Below are positions 32,181 through 44,631 of a stretch of 64,000 bases of DNA, in pieces (the first letter of the stretch is position 1; each line of letters opens with the position of its first letter). Below the pieces are notes generated by a model that saw only the letters and a program-made list of their open reading frames with translations, ran no database searches and was not told the origin of the DNA. The DNA lies in assembly GCA_937951675.1 (NCBI GenBank), contig CALFBI010000001.1, forward strand, positions 1-64,000. Direction: 5' to 3'. The stretch is from an uncultured Verrucomicrobiales bacterium. Its GTDB lineage: Bacteria; Verrucomicrobiota; Verrucomicrobiia; Verrucomicrobiales; Akkermansiaceae. A program made the position numbers and the translations under genes.

Positions 32181-33758
32181 TTACTTTTTCTCTTCTTCCG
32201 ATTTTGGTTTCGGAAGATTTAAAATTTCAGAACCTATGACAACCTCACATTCTGGTAAGCTTTCCTTAATTTTAGCGAGGCCGTCTTCACTCAATTGTGT
32301 TTTCCAAAGGTAAACTTTTTTCAAGTGAGGAAGCGCCAAGAGGTGATCTACTGACGCGTCCGTAATCGGAACTCCAAATAAGTTCAGGCGTTCTAACTTC
32401 GAAAGCTGTGATATCACAGGCATGGCCGCATCCGTAATTTGAGTTTCAGCGAGGGAAAGAATACGTAAATGTTCCATTCCTGATAGAATCTCAATTGATT
32501 GATCTGTCACAGAAGTCCCTGCCAAATCCAAATCGACGAGGCCTTCCGCGAGTGGAATAATGACTTCCAGATCCTTATCTGTGAAAGACTTCCGTAGGCT
32601 CATCGCACTAAAGCTCACCTCGTGGGTATTGAAAGAATTCACATAAGCCATCGGAAGGTAACGAGATCCTAAACCGTTGATTGCTGAAAGCATCCGCTTT
32701 TGTTTCTCTTTATCCAAAGGTTCTCCATCATGTCCTCCTCCATGAGAATCGCTCCCATGCTCTTTAGAGCCACCCGGTGCTGGCGCGGTAGAAATCAACG
32801 CTAATGAACTGAAAACAGCCTCCGGAACTTCCAGAGATTTCACCAAATCTTTTTCTGGCGCACCAGAACTCACCCACCAATCTAAAACCGCCACTTCTTC
32901 TTCTGTGAGCTGAGTCTTACTTTTAGGAGGCATGTGGAGATCATCCTCCAAAGGAAGGTGCACGTATTGCGTCAACAAACTTTTCTCCACATCTCCTGGA
33001 ATCAAGGTAATAGGCCCTTCACTGCCTCCTTCGAGAATCGCCGCGAAGCTATCGAGCCTTAGACCTCCTTTTTGCTTCTTATCATCATGGCACGTTGTGC
33101 ACTTCGCCGCGAGAAGAGGCGCGATCACATGGGCGTAAGCTTCTCTTTCTTCCACTTTTTCAGGGATCACCACTTGCGAAATCTCTTCCTCCGAATCATG
33201 TAAAGGCGCCAAAGGGTCGCCATGAGTCATCAACCCTCCATAATGAGCCCCTACCGTCATTGAACCCATCGAAGCGGGAAGGAGAACCATATAGAAAGGC
33301 ACCCAAAGTCGATTCTGATGTGACCAAACCTTTGCCACATAAGTCAGTGCCGCAATCACCGTGAAGGCTATCCCACCCCACATATGATTCGTAACCTTTG
33401 CCCCCTGATAGTCACCCTGAAGGTAAAGAAGATACCCAAAAAGAACCGCCACGAATGCTGACACGACTCCAAAGAAAAGTGGAACCGTCGTCTGGGGAGT
33501 ATATCGACCGAAAGAAACTAAACCTAAAACCTCCATGAGCATAACGATGGAAAGAATCCCAATCGGAAGGTGAAGCACTAAAGGGTGTAGATTTCCCCCT
33601 ACTTCGATCAAGGGCTCTAAAGGCTCCGAAGAGGGCTCTCCTAGTAGAAAGGGGATCAAAATGGCTACAACCGCGAGGACCAGCGCTATGATAGTGGTCG
33701 AGCTGGCTAAGCTTTTCGAAAAAGAAGAAGGATGAGGTCGATGGTCTTTGAGTTGCAT
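32181..33758 (-). CDS. Membrane-bound cytochrome c-type protein with leucine-rich repeats
   Basis: About 525 residues from the ATG at 33758. Five hydrophobic helices (about 25-180) with NLHPLVLHLPIGIL, resembling DUF2231. Next a Planctomycete/Verrucomicrobia-type cytochrome c domain: LLAAKCTTCHDDKKQKGGLR, with the CxxCH heme site at 225-229 (longer reading), then a MPPKSKTQLTEEEVAVLDWW end. After a His/Gly-rich linker, about six leucine-rich repeats (LVDLDLAGTSVTDQS, LRILSLAETQITDAA). Probably an electron-transfer or heme-sensing membrane protein facing the periplasm; the combination is typical of this phylum. Confidence 0.8.
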   Translation of the reverse strand: MQLKDHRPHPSSFSKSLASSTTIIALVLAVVAILIPFLLGEPSSEPLEPLIEVGGNLHPLVLHLPIGILSIVMLMEVLGLVSFGRYTPQTTVPLFFGVVSAFVAVLFGYLLYLQGDYQGAKVTNHMWGGIAFTVIAALTYVAKVWSHQNRLWVPFYMVLLPASMGSMTVGAHYGGLMTHGDPLAPLHDSEEEISQVVIPEKVEEREAYAHVIAPLLAAKCTTCHDDKKQKGGLRLDSFAAILEGGSEGPITLIPGDVEKSLLTQYVHLPLEDDLHMPPKSKTQLTEEEVAVLDWWVSSGAPEKDLVKSLEVPEAVFSSLALISTAPAPGGSKEHGSDSHGGGHDGEPLDKEKQKRMLSAINGLGSRYLPMAYVNSFNTHEVSFSAMSLRKSFTDKDLEVIIPLAEGLVDLDLAGTSVTDQSIEILSGMEHLRILSLAETQITDAAMPVISQLSKLERLNLFGVPITDASVDHLLALPHLKKVYLWKTQLSEDGLAKIKESLPECEVVIGSEILNLPKPKSEEEKK

Positions 33759-33904
33759 AATGCCAAGAATCAAAATCTGCGTTCAGATGAGCAAAGTTCT
33801 CACTTATACTCCACTCAAAGCGCTCTTCTTTCTAGAAAAAAGATTTAAAATACAAAGCTTTTTCCCCTGTGATCGATTCGATTCTTAATTTGCGGCTCTC
33901 GCTC

Positions 33905-37905: not shown

Positions 37906-38793
37906 CTAAGCCTCCTTCCGACGACGACGAATTTGCTGCCAAAGTAAGCCATCTAATGGACCAAAGCCCCAAGCTAACATAAAAAGAAAGGCTCCAAACA
38001 AAACAATCGAGGCCCCCGTGTTCATATCGGTCCAAACCGCGAGACAAACCCCTCCCACTGATGATAGTAAACTATGCAATGCGGCAATTAATAACACTTT
38101 GGGTAAACGCACGGCACAAAGGCTCGCCGTTGCTCCAGGTAAAATGAGCAATGAAACCACCAAAATCGCTCCAACCACTTGGAACGCCGCCACCACCACA
38201 AAGGAAGTCAAAGCCATCAGCAGATAATGACTCAAAATAGGGCGATACCGTAAAGAGCTCGCCAAAGCCGTATCGAAGGAAACCACAAAAAGAACCCGGT
38301 AAAATAGGGTAACGATGCCCACAACCATCAATGCGACCACGAAAAGAGAGAGCAAAGGGGCTGGAATGGAAACAGAGAAAAAGGAAACCAGATCAGACTG
38401 AACAAGATGCTCCAAATCACCGTGCAAGACACAATCGGTATCAAGATCCACTTTATCAGACACTCTTGAAATCAAAAGAACCCCGAATGCGAAAAGAGTT
38501 GTGAAAACTACCCCAATCGCAGCGTCTTGCTTAATCCTGCTTTTCTGATGAATGAGCTCTATCAAGACCGTGGTTACAAAACCAGCCAACCCTGCCCCTA
38601 AAATAAGCCAAGGAGAAGACAGACTCTTCGATATCAAAAAACCGAGCACAATCCCTGGAAGCACGCTGTGACTCATCGCATCCCCCACCAGGGACATTCT
38701 TCGGATCACGAGAAAAGTGCCCACTTGAGAGCACGGAAGAGCCGCCAAAAAGCCTCCTAAGCCGAGCATAAAATACATTTGCCACTCCGTCAC
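37906..38793 (-). CDS. Metal ABC transporter permease (TroD/MntC-like)
   Basis: 295 residues from a GTG that overlaps the preceding stop by 4 bases. ABC-3 permease: about eight hydrophobic helices and the sequence MSLVGDAMSHSVLPGIVLGF, the hallmark of this family (Mn, Zn or Fe import). GAILVVSLLILPGATASL follows further on. Last gene of the metal operon; partner of the permease-repressor fusion upstream. Confidence 0.9.
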   Translation of the reverse strand: MTEWQMYFMLGLGGFLAALPCSQVGTFLVIRRMSLVGDAMSHSVLPGIVLGFLISKSLSSPWLILGAGLAGFVTTVLIELIHQKSRIKQDAAIGVVFTTLFAFGVLLISRVSDKVDLDTDCVLHGDLEHLVQSDLVSFFSVSIPAPLLSLFVVALMVVGIVTLFYRVLFVVSFDTALASSLRYRPILSHYLLMALTSFVVVAAFQVVGAILVVSLLILPGATASLCAVRLPKVLLIAALHSLLSSVGGVCLAVWTDMNTGASIVLFGAFLFMLAWGFGPLDGLLWQQIRRRRKEA

Positions 38794-40076
38794 TTTTGCC
38801 CCCCTTCTCTTAATAAGACACTTGTTTTTGCGGGGTCAGGAATAGGCATCCCATGAGGATCGGCCGTTGGAAAATCAAGCTGCTTTTCAAGAGCTTCTAA
38901 AAGGTCACCTTTTAATACATGCTCCATTTTCTCAGCATCATCATGCACGTGATCCGTTTGGTAATCAGCCTCATTGATCAAATAAAGCTCCCAAAGTCGG
39001 TGATTCCGAATCAGCTCCGCAGCACGCTGCTCCCCATTCATTGTCAACTGCCATACATCTCTCCCGGACAGTGACTCTATCAACCCCACTTTCTTTAATG
39101 AAAAAAGCTCTGGTAAAACATGTGAGGGCGAACGTCTTCGATACTGAGCTAACTCCGACAAAGTGACTGCCCTCTTTCCATCGGAACGCTGTTCCTTGAT
39201 TCGGTAAAGCGATTGCAAAGTGTTTTCTCTTCGGATCTGGCGCACTTGTTGACGCCTTCGCAAATATTTCGCCAAAACCCCATATTGAGGAGCAAACAGG
39301 AAAGCCAAGCCAAACAGAGCGGCAGCGGAAATCGCGATCGCAGGCCCCGTTGGGGTCTTTAGTTGCTGGTAAGACCACAAGCACCCTATCATCCCTGCCA
39401 AAATTGAAAAACCTACCGAAAGCATCATCATCTTCGAAAATCGGTCTGTCAAAAGATAGGCTGTAGCTGCCGGTGTAATGAGCATAGCCGAAACAAGAAC
39501 CACCCCAACCGCCTGCATTGAAACCACCACCGCGGCCGCAAGAAGGAAAGCAAAAATAGAGTCTAACACCTTTACTGGGTAAGATAAATTACGAGCAAAC
39601 CCAGGATCAAAACTCGCCACATAAAAAGGGCGCCGAAGTAAGGCTACGGCACAGACAATGAGTAAAGAAACTCCACCCATCATCAATAAATCGGAATCCG
39701 TAATGGCCGCAATCTGCCCGTATAAATAAGAACTCACTCCCGTTTGCGGGCTCAAACTATGCAATCCGACCCCAAACGCAAAAAAAGTCACTAACACCAC
39801 TCCCAAGCTAGCATCCTGCTTCAGACGAGTCGTTCGTTGAAGCGACCCTGACATCAATGCCCCCAAAATCCCTGCCAACAAAGCACAGCCTAAAATGAAA
39901 TAGGGATTTTTTTCATCCTGCAGGAAAAAGCCAAGCACCACTCCAGGGAACACTGCATGCGACATCGTATCACCAAAAAGAGACATTCGACGAACGACCA
40001 CATAACTCCCTATCAACCCACAAGAAAGCCCTAAAAAAAGGCTCGCTAAAAGAGCTGTCTGTAATGCGCCGAACAT
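38790..40076 (-). CDS. Metal ABC transporter permease fused to a DtxR/MntR-type repressor
   Basis: 428 residues. Residues 1-275 are an ABC-3 permease (MSLFGDTMSHAVFPGVVLGF). From about 283 a full DtxR-type regulator follows: winged helix with LYRIKEQRSDGKRAVTLSEL, PSHVLPELFSLKKVGLIE; then the metal and dimer domain RNHRLWELYL, HVHDDAEKMEHVL and DPHGMPIP. Candidate metal ligands are H359, E363, H378, E382, E385 and H386. The E-x-x-E-H pattern follows MntR (Mn) rather than the Cys/Met of DtxR/IdeR. Only the final SH3-like domain is absent. The fusion ties sensing to the membrane. See the operator at 41868. Confidence 0.88.
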   Translation of the reverse strand: MFGALQTALLASLFLGLSCGLIGSYVVVRRMSLFGDTMSHAVFPGVVLGFFLQDEKNPYFILGCALLAGILGALMSGSLQRTTRLKQDASLGVVLVTFFAFGVGLHSLSPQTGVSSYLYGQIAAITDSDLLMMGGVSLLIVCAVALLRRPFYVASFDPGFARNLSYPVKVLDSIFAFLLAAAVVVSMQAVGVVLVSAMLITPAATAYLLTDRFSKMMMLSVGFSILAGMIGCLWSYQQLKTPTGPAIAISAAALFGLAFLFAPQYGVLAKYLRRRQQVRQIRRENTLQSLYRIKEQRSDGKRAVTLSELAQYRRRSPSHVLPELFSLKKVGLIESLSGRDVWQLTMNGEQRAAELIRNHRLWELYLINEADYQTDHVHDDAEKMEHVLKGDLLEALEKQLDFPTADPHGMPIPDPAKTSVLLREGGQK

Positions 40077-40087
40077 AAAAAATACTA

Positions 40088-40879
40088 TTAAGAATGGTCT
40101 TTATGAATTTTCTCAAGCGGGACTTTTGCGGCCTGCTCTGCCATTTCTGCCAGGATCGTCAAGCGACCTCCGTAAGTTTTTTGCAAAAGTTCTGTAGTAA
40201 AAACATCCTCCGTCTTGCCGAATGCTACGACCCGCATATTAAGCAAGATCAACATGTCAAAATAATCGCGTGCCGATTGTAAATCATGGTGCACTACGAG
40301 AACGGTCTTTCCCTGCTCTCGCAGCTCTTTAAGCAATTCAATAATCGCAGACTCTGTCGCAGCATCGACCCCCGCAAAAGGCTCATCCATAAAATAGAGA
40401 TCACTGTCTTGAGCCAAAGCTCTCGCCAAAAACACACGTTGTTGCTGCCCCCCGCTCAAACTGCCGATCTGACGCTTCGCAAAGGGAAGCATCCCCACTC
40501 GTTCAAGAGCCTCTTCAGCCCGGGCTCGTTCGGAGGCACCAGCTCGACGGAACGGGCCAAGCCGCCCGAAGGTCCCCATCATCGCAACATCCATGACAGT
40601 CACAGGAAAGTCCCAGTCCACGCTTTCACGCTGAGGCACATAACCAATTCGCCCTAAGACATCATTCACAGGTTGCCCGAAAGCTTCAGCCCACCCGCTC
40701 GCCATGGGCACCACTCCCATGATCGACTTAATCAAAGTCGACTTACCTGCCCCATTAGGACCTACGACTCCCACCAAATTTCCAGTCGGAACCGCTAAAT
40801 CTATTCCGTAAAGAACAGGCTTTTTGTGGTAAGTCACCGTGAGGTCATGAACCTCTAGCGCATGGACCTCCGTTTTCAT
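40088..40879 (-). CDS. Metal ABC transporter ATP-binding protein (TroB/MntB-like)
   Basis: 263 residues. Walker A GPNGAGKSTLIKSI, Q-loop VPQRESVDWDFPVTV, signature SGGQQQRVFLARAL and Walker B LYFMDEPFAGVD, then H-loop LVVHHDL. RESVDWDFPV is typical for the ATPases of Mn/Zn/Fe ABC-3 systems. It overlaps the upstream binding-protein gene by 4 bases and is 11 bases from the permease fusion. Confidence 0.93.
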   Translation of the reverse strand: MKTEVHALEVHDLTVTYHKKPVLYGIDLAVPTGNLVGVVGPNGAGKSTLIKSIMGVVPMASGWAEAFGQPVNDVLGRIGYVPQRESVDWDFPVTVMDVAMMGTFGRLGPFRRAGASERARAEEALERVGMLPFAKRQIGSLSGGQQQRVFLARALAQDSDLYFMDEPFAGVDAATESAIIELLKELREQGKTVLVVHHDLQSARDYFDMLILLNMRVVAFGKTEDVFTTELLQKTYGGRLTILAEMAEQAAKVPLEKIHKDHS

Positions 40880-41826
40880 TTGAGAGCGTTTACCACGGTA
40901 TTCACATTATGCTTAATCATCCCAATGTAAGTGCCTTTATCATACGACTCCTCACCCATCGTGACAACATCTCCGACAACACCCATTGCATCTGAAAAAA
41001 GCTCTTCGTGACTCACTTTCACTCCCGACTCTTTGGCCACCGCCTCGAGAGCTTTAGGGTTCACACTCGATTCTGGAAAAATGGCACGCACTCCTTTCTC
41101 TCTAATCATGGTAACGAGTTGAGCTCTATCTTTCAAACCTACTTCAGAAACCGTGGAAAGGCCTTGCAGCCCTTTGACTTCAAAATGAAAAGCGTTCCCA
41201 AAATAGAAAAAGGCATCATGACTCGTAACCAAAAAGCGCTGTTCCTCCGGAACCTCCGCTGCACGTTTGAGAGCCCACTGGTGGAGCGCCTCTAATTCTT
41301 TGTGATACGCTTCTCCTTGAGCTCGATAGGTTTCAGCACCTTCGGGATCCACCTTGCTAAGCCCGTCCACTACCGACTTCACGGTAAAAGACCATAAGCG
41401 AGGACTCCCCCATACATGAGGGTCGTAATGCCCTGGAAAATCTTCCTCTGGTGCTAATAGTTGTTCCTTAGGAATCGAATCTGTCACCGCGATAATGGCA
41501 GGTTTCCTCTTCGCCAAAGCTTCTAAACTGTCTTGCATCTTACCTTCCAAATGGAGGCCGCAATAGAAAACCGCATCAGCCTCTTGCACTGCCAAGGTAT
41601 CACTCAACTTCGGTTGATAACTATGAGGGTCTACTCCGGGCCCCATAATCCCAGTCACTTCAACCCGTTCTCCCGCTACTCGCTTCACAAGGTCTGTGAC
41701 CATGGTCGCGGTGCAAACCACCGAGAGCTTTCCTGAACCAGACTCTTCTGTTTCCTTTTTCCGGCTGCAACCAGCTAAAAACAGTGCCATGCACCCTAGC
41801 ATTAAAAAGGGTTTCATTTTCTTCAT
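40876..41826 (-). CDS. Metal-binding lipoprotein of the ABC transporter (TroA/MntA-like)
   Basis: 316 residues from the ATG at 41826 (in-frame alternatives at 41853 and 41817). Lipoprotein signal MKKMKPFLMLGCMALFLAGC. Cluster A-I binding protein: first His in PGVDPHSYQPKLSD, second His in HYDPHVWGSPRL, third in TSHDAFFYFG, and Glu/Asp near FPESSVNPK and SDAMG. His-His-Glu-Asp favours Mn or Zn. There is no His-rich loop like that of ZnuA, which leans to manganese. First gene of the operon, 41 bases downstream of the palindrome. Confidence 0.9.
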   Translation of the reverse strand: MKKMKPFLMLGCMALFLAGCSRKKETEESGSGKLSVVCTATMVTDLVKRVAGERVEVTGIMGPGVDPHSYQPKLSDTLAVQEADAVFYCGLHLEGKMQDSLEALAKRKPAIIAVTDSIPKEQLLAPEEDFPGHYDPHVWGSPRLWSFTVKSVVDGLSKVDPEGAETYRAQGEAYHKELEALHQWALKRAAEVPEEQRFLVTSHDAFFYFGNAFHFEVKGLQGLSTVSEVGLKDRAQLVTMIREKGVRAIFPESSVNPKALEAVAKESGVKVSHEELFSDAMGVVGDVVTMGEESYDKGTYIGMIKHNVNTVVNALK

Positions 41827-41867
41827 TAAGGAATGGAATGCCCTAAATATCAATTTTTGTCAATTCA

Positions 41868-41887
41868 GAATTAGGCAAGCCTAATTC
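41868..41887. promoter_or_regulatory. DtxR/MntR-like operator palindrome upstream of the metal operon
   Basis: GAATTAGGCAAGCCTAATTC is a perfect 9+9 inverted repeat with an AA centre. Its core TTAGGCAAGCCTAA matches the half-sites of DtxR-family operators (TTAGG..AGCCTAA). It lies 41 bases before the binding-protein start and 81 before ribBA, so it could control either or both. Its regulator is likely the repressor domain encoded in the same operon. Confidence 0.75.
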
Positions 41888-41968
41888 TCGGGACTCACGA
41901 CTAAATACAATAATTTACCAGCTTTCACTCGACCTCTTGAGATTCCAGGGCGATATTAAACCACGAGC

Positions 41969-43171
41969 ATGAGTGAGCTTAAGTTTCATCCCATTGAGGA
42001 AATTATCGAAGAGATCAGCGCCGGGAAAATTGTCATCGTTGCCGATGACCCCAACCGTGAGAACGAGGCGGACTTAGTCGCGGCGGCAAGCCTGATCACA
42101 CCAGAGTCTATAGCCTTCATGGCATCACATGGCCGAGGCCTTATCTGCACCCCGATCACTTCCGATCGCGCCCATGACCTTAACCTTGGGCAAATGACTC
42201 GGCGGAACCAAGAAGGTCACCAAACCGCTTTCACCGTTTCAGTAGACGCGGCAAAAGGAATCACAACGGGGATCTCAGCTGCAGATCGCGCGAGAACCAT
42301 CCAAATCTTAGCCGATGACACCGCCAAAGTTTCTGACCTTGTCCAACCTGGACACATCTTCCCATTACAAGCGGTAGAAGGAGGAGTGCTTCGTAGAGCG
42401 GGGCATACTGAAGCCTCGGTCGATCTCGCTAGACTCGCCAAGCTCCCCCCTGCTGGAGTGATTTGTGAAATCATGAACGAAGATGGAACCATGGCCCGAG
42501 TTGGGGACTTAGGTGACTACCAAACGAAGCATTCTCTCAAGGCATGCACCATTTCACAGCTAATCGAATACCGGCGCATGAGCGAACAGCTCATTGATCA
42601 CACCGAAACCATTCAATTACCAACCGATTATGGTGATTTCGATTGCCATCTTTACCAAGTTCGCACTGATGACTCTCACCATCTCGCCTTAACACGTGGC
42701 GAAATTGACCCTGACAAAGCAATCTTGGTCCGAGTTCATTCTGAGTGTTTAACTGGAGACGTCTTTGGCTCACGCCGCTGTGACTGCGGAGGGCAACTTC
42801 ATACGGCCCTTGAGAAAATTGCAGAAGAGGGAGGGGTTTTACTCTACCTCCGCCAAGAAGGACGCGGCATTGGACTCCCGGCTAAAATCAAAGCCTATAA
42901 ACTTCAACAAGAAGGGCTCGATACCGTAGAGGCTAACGAAAAACTTGGTTTCGCCTCTGATCTTCGTGATTACGGGGTTGGAGCTCAGATTTTGCAACAC
43001 CTCGGGATAGGGAAAATTCGCCTCATGACCAACAACCCAAAGAAAGTCATCGGGCTTGACGGTTACGGGCTCGAAATCATTGAACAAATTCCTATCCAAC
43101 AAGATTCCAATCCTCATAACGCTAAATATCTTGAAACCAAAAAGGATAAAATGGGGCACAAACTCATCTAA
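41969..43171 (+). CDS. ribBA: Bifunctional 3,4-dihydroxybutanone-4-phosphate synthase / GTP cyclohydrolase II
   Basis: 400 residues. N-terminal half: [20 protein letters not shown] and [14 protein letters not shown], with [15 protein letters not shown] (RibB). C-terminal half (from about 205): [20 protein letters not shown], with three zinc-binding Cys, [12 protein letters not shown] and LMTNNPKK (RibA). Supplies both starting branches of riboflavin synthesis. ribH follows. Confidence 0.95.
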
Positions 43172-43234
43172 TCATTCAGGAATACAAGGGCTGAGTTGAC
43201 ATTACCCCCTCTTACTGACAAAACCTTTCGAACA

Positions 43235-43750
43235 ATGTCTGAGGCATTACCCACGAAACCAAGAATCACTGGACTCCGTGCTGCAAGAGTAGCCATTGTT
43301 GCTTCTGAGTATAATTCAGAATTTACTAACAGCCTGGTGAAACATGCTCAAGACGAGCTCAAATCTTTACTTCCACTCGTTAAGATAGAAACGATTCGAG
43401 TGCCCGGAGCTTTCGAAATCCCTGTGACGATCGAACAAGTGCTCAAGTCCGAAGAATACAATGCCGTCATTGCGCTCGGAATCATTTTAAAAGGAAGCAC
43501 CGCCCATGCTGACCATATTGGGCAAGCTGTAACAAATGCTCTTATACAGCAATCTATAACACACCAACTTCCAATCATTCACGAAGTTCTTCTCATGGAA
43601 AATGAGGAACAAGCTTATGCGCGCTGTATCGGTGAAAAACTTAATCGTGGAGTTGAAGCAGCCCGAGTGACTGCTTCAATGATCGAGACTTTTAGTAATA
43701 TGAAGCGCAGCAAATCTCGCAGCCAACGCATGCTTCCGAGTAAAAAGTAA
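43235..43750 (+). CDS. ribH: 6,7-dimethyl-8-ribityllumazine synthase
   Basis: 171 residues from the ATG at 43235; a TTG at 43196 is unlikely. Motifs: VAIVASEYNSEFTNSL, VPGAFEIPVTIEQVL, ALGIILKGSTAHADHI (with the conserved His), and a C-terminal NRGVEAARVTASMIE. Condenses the two precursors from RibBA and RibD branches. It shares its last base with the nusB start, an order (ribBA-ribH-nusB) common in bacteria. Confidence 0.95.
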   Translation: MSEALPTKPRITGLRAARVAIVASEYNSEFTNSLVKHAQDELKSLLPLVKIETIRVPGAFEIPVTIEQVLKSEEYNAVIALGIILKGSTAHADHIGQAVTNALIQQSITHQLPIIHEVLLMENEEQAYARCIGEKLNRGVEAARVTASMIETFSNMKRSKSRSQRMLPSKK

Positions 43751-44631
43751 TGCCTAATCATCGCCACATCAGAGAAGCGGCTATTCAGCTTCTTTACACA
43801 GCTCACCTCGAAGAATCCCCCTTACCTGATTCAACAAGAGAGGCTTTTTGGAACCTTATACTGGAAAAACAGTCCTCTAAGCATACTCACGCGGTCGCAA
43901 AGGCACTCCAACACCTTGCCCAGGGGAGAAAAGCGCGGCTAGATCAGCTCGAGAAACATCAAGATGTAACTCTCTCCATTGTTAGGAGTCGAGTGGATTC
44001 AGAAAAATTCACCGCCGCACTCGAAGATTACTATGTGCGCGAAAATGATTTTTCCATTCTTTTAGAGGCCATTAAGCCAGAGCACCACCAAGATCACCTT
44101 GAGACACTGCAGGCATCAATTTCAGCACTCTATTTAAAAAACCGCCATCTTGCTGAACAGAGAAGTCGCATCCAAAAAGAAATCGATATCGATCCTGAAT
44201 ACCGGAAAAAATTAGAAGGCACGCAATCAGCTCTCCTCAAACTGCAACGCCTCTCCGAAAGGATTATGGTCGTAGAAAGACCCGAAGATTTCCCAAATGA
44301 GGAAAAAGAAACGCGTCTGATCGAGAGCCAACAGGAAATTGATAATCTCAAAAATGAAGCGAATACGCTGGTCGACCGGGTTTTAGCCCAAGCGACAGAA
44401 TTCGATTCCCGGATTGAAGCCGCATGCCATCACTACACCATCGAAAGAATTAACCCTATCGATAAAGCTATTATTCGAATGGCTCTACTTGACTTTGCCG
44501 ACGGGAAAGCGGTTGCAGCGACAATTAATGGGGCCATTGAGTGCGCCAAACGATTTTGTTCACAAGATTCTGGTCGCTTTGTTAATGGCATCCTCGACCA
44601 GATGAAGCCTTCTTCTACTGATCTCGCGTAG
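43750..44631 (+). CDS. nusB: Transcription antitermination factor NusB with a long internal insertion
   Basis: 293 residues, about twice the usual 140-150. The N-terminus HRHIREAAIQLLYTAHLEES and the C-terminus (ERINPIDKAIIRMALLDFAD, then VAATINGAIECAKRFCSQDS and GRFVNGILDQ) are clear NusB halves. Between them is about 150 extra residues, mostly helical and charged (LETLQASISALYLKNRHLAE, RLIESQQEIDNLKNEANTLV). NusB pairs with NusE (S10) in rRNA antitermination; its binding surface may be extended here. The gene overlaps ribH by one base. Confidence 0.85.
   Translation: MPNHRHIREAAIQLLYTAHLEESPLPDSTREAFWNLILEKQSSKHTHAVAKALQHLAQGRKARLDQLEKHQDVTLSIVRSRVDSEKFTAALEDYYVRENDFSILLEAIKPEHHQDHLETLQASISALYLKNRHLAEQRSRIQKEIDIDPEYRKKLEGTQSALLKLQRLSERIMVVERPEDFPNEEKETRLIESQQEIDNLKNEANTLVDRVLAQATEFDSRIEAACHHYTIERINPIDKAIIRMALLDFADGKAVAATINGAIECAKRFCSQDSGRFVNGILDQMKPSSTDLA

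Follow-up and report, generated by a model that had tools for sequence, protein, structure and literature searches.

A permease–DtxR fusion in a metal importer operon of Verrucomicrobiota, with a separate MntR as the likely reader of its candidate operator

The closest described relative of the protein considered here is YtgC–YtgR (CT069) of Chlamydia trachomatis, which is cleaved in vivo and whose YtgR part is an iron-dependent DNA-binding repressor of ytgABCD and trpBA (PMC5599777, PMC6504234, PMC7755916). No iron-dependent regulator other than YtgR has been identified in Chlamydia (PMC5599777, PMC6504234), and similar permease–DtxR fusions have been reported from 11 phyla (PMC5599777, PMC6504234, PMC7755916). 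The architecture itself is not new, as the original prediction for this locus, made by a model from the letters alone, had recognized; its remark that the mechanism is little described does not hold for the chlamydial protein. Fusions of this kind tend to be interpreted via Chlamydia, as repressors awaiting release. What is new, as far as the searched literature goes, is comparative evidence that points to a separate MntR as the DNA reader in Verrucomicrobiota.

The stretch of DNA analysed (the window) comprises positions 1 to 64,000 of contig CALFBI010000001.1, from an uncultured Verrucomicrobiales bacterium (GCA_937951675.1). In a single unbroken frame of 428 amino acids on the minus strand, running from 40076 to 38790 with the stop included, it joins an ABC-3 permease to a DtxR-like domain, and by published description YtgC–YtgR has the same ABC-3-type N-terminus, DtxR-like C-terminus, gene order and DtxR metal ligands. 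Pfam matches ABC-3 at residues 3–261 (E=9e-70) and Fe_dep_repr_C (PF02742) at residues 345–414 (E=2e-23), and the DtxR HTH model PF01325 gave no match in the Pfam scan of this protein. The uninterrupted frame and both Pfam matches bear out the proposed fusion of a permease to a DtxR-like domain, but calling the latter a full repressor overstated the case: the metal-binding and dimerisation half is well matched, and the winged helix-turn-helix (wHTH) is not recognized by PF01325. A sequencing error at about 39255 that joined two separate genes was ruled out because the same continuous one-frame fusion recurs in dozens of independent genomes and the predicted structure is confident across the junction. 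The permease–DtxR fusion is real.

The fusion stands third in a compact minus-strand operon whose gene order matches that of ytgABCD: a ZnuA/MntC-type substrate-binding lipoprotein (40876–41853), an ABC transporter ATPase (40088–40879), the permease–DtxR fusion (38790–40076) and a second, unfused ABC-3 permease (37906–38793), which starts at a GTG that shares bases with the stop of the fusion (GTGA). The lipoprotein gene is listed from a TTG at 41853 and more probably starts at the ATG at 41826. An Mn/Fe-type ABC importer is the best explanation of these four genes. The same genome holds a second, unfused ABC-3 metal importer (G000 contig C6, about 125200–128100; L172). Divergent riboflavin genes lie on the plus strand at 41969–44631, encoding a RibB/RibA fusion, a lumazine synthase-like ORF and a NusB of 293 residues that matches its family only from residue 183 onwards and so has a long N-terminal extension; an Rfam search of the window returned nothing, an FMN riboswitch near these genes included. 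At 32181–33773, on the minus strand, the window also encodes a planctomycete-type cytochrome c (PSCyt1) with a DUF2231 membrane part and leucine-rich repeats.

AlphaFold2 modelled the fusion with a mean pLDDT of 88.5. In Foldseek searches with this model, the permease part (residues 1–262; 39291–40076) resembles the manganese importer PsaBC of Streptococcus pneumoniae (7kyp/7kyo; 32% identity; target-normalised TM about 0.88, range 0.86–0.92), which, unlike the fusion, lacks a C-terminal regulatory domain. After the permease, a single predicted helix (residues 267–296; 39189–39278) that carries N285 runs continuously from the end of the last transmembrane helix into DtxR helix 1, with no disordered linker at the junction, and leads to the winged helix and the metal-binding and dimerisation helices. 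The isolated DtxR-like domain matches DR2539 (target-normalised TM about 0.83), IdeR and DtxR, so that by prediction it has the winged-helix fold of the DtxR/MntR family. It thereby shares its fold and most metal ligands with stand-alone MntR, DtxR and IdeR proteins such as Deinococcus radiodurans DR2539, and differs from them in its fusion to a permease, its lack of conserved DNA contacts and of an SH3/FeoA domain, and its fusion-only residues W362 and N358. Residues 266–283 are basic among the fusions (median net charge +6), and because basic charge is expected on the cytosolic face of a membrane, the junction helix presumably faces the cytosol.

The metal site is strongly conserved among the fused domains. 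In the window's protein the metal-binding and dimerisation domain (residues 345–414; 38835–39044) holds all six ligands originally predicted, H359, E363, H378, E382, E385 and H386, as in the DtxR/MntR family. When 116 fused domains were aligned with MAFFT, H359, E363, E385 and H386 were invariant in 116/116, position 378 was H in 93 and D in 23, and position 382 was E in 90 and D in 26. The fusion-specific W362 was likewise invariant (116/116), and N358, Y365 and R313 are further conserved fusion-specific residues. Fusions that conserve the ligands and W362 span the phylum and include records titled Sumerlaeota and Omnitrophota; Rubritalea marina and Persicirhabdus sediminis both carry a fusion. 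Grouped by the residue at the position of DtxR M10 (285 here), the fusions fall into N (85), H (20), D (10) and S (1) types, and the ligand set follows the type: N285 with HEHEEH in 80/85, H285 with HEDDEH in 20/20 and D285 with HEHEEH in 10/10. Such covarying sets look like maintained, retuned metal sites. The loss at N285 of the ligand that is M10 in DtxR and D8 in MntR was considered as the mark of a broken site; the idea was rejected, since N also occupies this position in stand-alone DtxRs of the phylum and the ligands covary as sets.

The DNA-reading face is where the fused domains depart from the family. The recognition-helix equivalent of the window's protein (residues 317–329, PSHVLPELFSLKK; 39090–39128) has unconserved DNA-contact residues. 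Entropy at the DNA-contact columns (DtxR 36–44) is 1.6–3.4 bits among N-type fusions, and positions 39, 40, 42 and 44 show none or almost none in the stand-alone MntR/DtxR proteins of the same genomes; Asp or Glu occupies contact positions 39/40 in 75/85 N-type fusions compared with 0/75 stand-alones. The window's fusion has no acid at positions 39/40 but has a proline inside the recognition helix. Fe_dep_repr_C is matched by 48/48 scanned fusions and PF01325 by 2/48 (E≤0.1). The original prediction had stated that a recognition helix without its DNA-contacting residues would count against a repressor, and the hypervariable columns and frequent acids amount largely to such a loss. Divergence of the helix alone is no proof of lost DNA binding, because indirect readout of DNA has been argued for IdeR (PMC8464063).

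The wHTH fold is nevertheless retained in nearly all fusions; it may be structural, or DNA binding may be retained in some lineages. Five D-type fusions have a shortened or lost winged helix with the metal half kept, and four of the five occupy the second position in a tandem pair of permeases. Tandem fusions, with a DtxR-like C-terminus on both permeases, are found at L013, L015, L016, L017, L020, L025, L026, L027 and L028; at L013, L016, L017 and L025 the second permease's domain is without much of the winged helix. Production of a separate C-terminal domain by internal translation, as had been suggested, is unsupported and was rejected, since no Met column is conserved among the fusions between residues 262 and 302.

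Upstream of the operon lies an operator-like palindrome, AGAATTAGGC-AA-GCCTAATTCT (41867–41888), a perfect inverted repeat with 10-nt arms located 41–62 nt upstream of the ATG at 41826. An arm of 10 was reached in 6 of 3,000 mononucleotide shuffles of the 115-nt intergenic stretch. No other copy within two mismatches was found in the genome, three-mismatch sites occurred at control level, and a sigma-70 promoter scan of 41780–42000 found none. The window's genome encodes a canonical stand-alone MntR elsewhere (G000 contig C23), and in several genomes the stand-alone regulator is divergent from the fusion operon and adjoins it. Stand-alone MntR/DtxR proteins were present in 59 of the 61 fusion-bearing genomes checked, the two in which none was found (G196 and G212) being draft metagenome-assembled genomes (MAGs); G212 has a class I operator although no stand-alone regulator was found in this draft. 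At L060 (G196), neither a stand-alone MntR nor a class I operator was detected, and another 10-nt palindrome, AATCCCTTAT-TT-ATAAGGGATT, lies upstream.

Across genomes, the class of the upstream operator tracks the recognition helix of the stand-alone regulator. Sites were assigned to classes under a rule that was drawn up only once they were known (53 genomes called, five uncalled), and where a genome had several stand-alone regulators one was picked by hand (for example, L105 and L112). TTAG-N6-CTAA operators occur with the MntR helix QASVTxM in 30 genomes and with another MntR in 2, AGTTCG-N6-CAAACT-like operators with the MntR helix GxPSVTSM in 2, TGTAG-N6-CTACA operators with the stand-alone helix HVTV in 3, and CTTTGA-N4-TCAAAG operators with the DtxR helix GTxTxM in 16. 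None of the 53 genomes paired an operator with the helix of another class, and 0 of 10,000 permutations matched the observed association, which counts related genomes and not independent events. The association holds among N-type fusions alone (n=42) and is therefore not a by-product of fusion type. The TTAG operator also precedes unfused forms of the operon in other genomes, in two cases alongside a divergent MntR. Of 22 genomes, 10 had an exact class I site, each a single one, and a reversed-pattern control gave none. A candidate natural specificity shift is seen at L129, L132 and L133 (MntRs L154, L203 and L156), where AGTTCG/AGTTCA..CAAACT operators accompany the changed MntR helix GxPSVTSM.

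On this comparative evidence, the stand-alone MntR, rather than the fused domain, is likely to read the candidate operator, and transcriptional control of the operon by stand-alone MntR is well supported. The fused domain as reader of the palindrome is disfavoured, since operator class tracks the stand-alone helix. The original proposal of a fused repressor that controls its own transporter thus keeps its fusion and its intact metal site, but the operator is better explained by the separate MntR.

The reading that we favour, with confidence that is evenly balanced, has MntR repressing at the palindrome and the fused domain sensing metal on the cytosolic side of the importer, probably to feedback-inhibit transport. 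The separate canonical MntR (contig C23) would repress transcription at 41867–41888, and the fused domain, in which the predicted DtxR fold and the metal site persist without a conserved DNA-reading face, would bind cytosolic Mn2+/Fe2+. When metal is plentiful, this domain would restrain the transporter through the helix that joins the last transmembrane helix to DtxR helix 1 (trans-inhibition). DtxR is activated when metal is bound between its helix 1 and its dimerisation domain, and metal at the corresponding place could act on the permease because helix 1, bearing residue 285, continues the helix that follows the last transmembrane segment. Metal sensing at the transporter would be the simplest role, because the fused domain does not appear to be an operator reader and its metal site is strongly conserved. 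Metal binding by the window's domain, its cytosolic location and its gating of transport are inferences.

Ligand-sensing domains that are fused to ABC importers and shut them are known from MetNI and ModABC (PMC10710835). If the sensor hypothesis is right, the window's domain resembles the MetNI C2 and ModABC regulatory domains in being a cytosolic ligand-sensing domain on an importer subunit; those domains belong to the ATPase, differ in fold and were established by experiment (PMC10710835), whereas the present one is on the permease, is DtxR-derived and has a predicted role. Counting against this preferred reading are the retained wHTH fold, which a pure sensor would not need, the known relative YtgR, which binds DNA and represses its own operon in Chlamydia, and the drafts G196 and G212, in which no stand-alone regulator was found. 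Moreover, with the domain on a single permease of the pair here, a DtxR-type dimer would need two transporters.

The alternative that survives best is a YtgR-like one, in which the C-terminal domain is proteolytically released, or acts while tethered, as a metal-dependent repressor of the operon or of other genes alongside MntR. The shared domain and operon order, the demonstrated cleavage and DNA binding of YtgR (PMC5599777, PMC6504234), the retained wHTH fold and the reports of fusions in 11 phyla (PMC5599777) all speak for it. We nonetheless consider it unlikely, at perhaps half the weight of the sensor: unlike in YtgC–YtgR as described, the window's genome has a separate MntR, with which the operator covaries and by which it is explained; recognition-helix contacts are unconserved and often acidic; the operator site is single-copy in the genome; and the predicted junction is a continuous helix without a disordered linker.

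Less probable again, and in our view doubtful, is a role without gating, in which the domain would accept or buffer metal, or serve assembly, at the importer's cytosolic exit. Conserved metal ligands next to an unconserved DNA face would suit such a role, as would the coordinated change of the ligand set, but the conserved W362, N358, Y365 and R313 together with the retained fold suggest a defined protein interface, not simple buffering.

The fused domain could also dimerise with, or sequester, a stand-alone MntR/DtxR at the membrane, for which the retained dimerisation domain and the co-occurrence of fusion and stand-alone protein in 59/61 genomes can be cited. A genome scan kept 80 loci, of which 0/80 were chlamydial, and in a domain tree all 116 fusions group together, apart from 76 stand-alones, with weak support (0.53). 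The fused domains lie farther from MntR (mean tree distance 5.7) than from DtxR (4.4), so pairing with the short MntR of the window's genome would join distant subfamilies, and we regard sequestration as quite improbable. A vestigial remnant without function would fit the unconserved DNA contacts and the presence of a separate repressor but is hardly credible, given that metal ligands and W362 never vary among the 116 fusions, which span the phylum and include Sumerlaeota- and Omnitrophota-titled records.

Extended to the phylum, the preferred sensor reading describes an Mn/Fe importer lineage in which a DtxR-family repressor domain was converted into a permease-borne sensor that allosterically inhibits transport, with a separate MntR for transcription; we offer this tentatively, with slightly less confidence than the reading of the locus itself. 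If the domain is indeed an on-transporter metal gauge in Verrucomicrobiota, it would constitute a DtxR-derived trans-inhibition module, and many 'permease-repressor' annotations would have to be reinterpreted. Cultivable organisms such as Rubritalea marina or Persicirhabdus sediminis would then provide a system for studying how the fold of a transcription factor can turn into an allosteric domain of a transporter.
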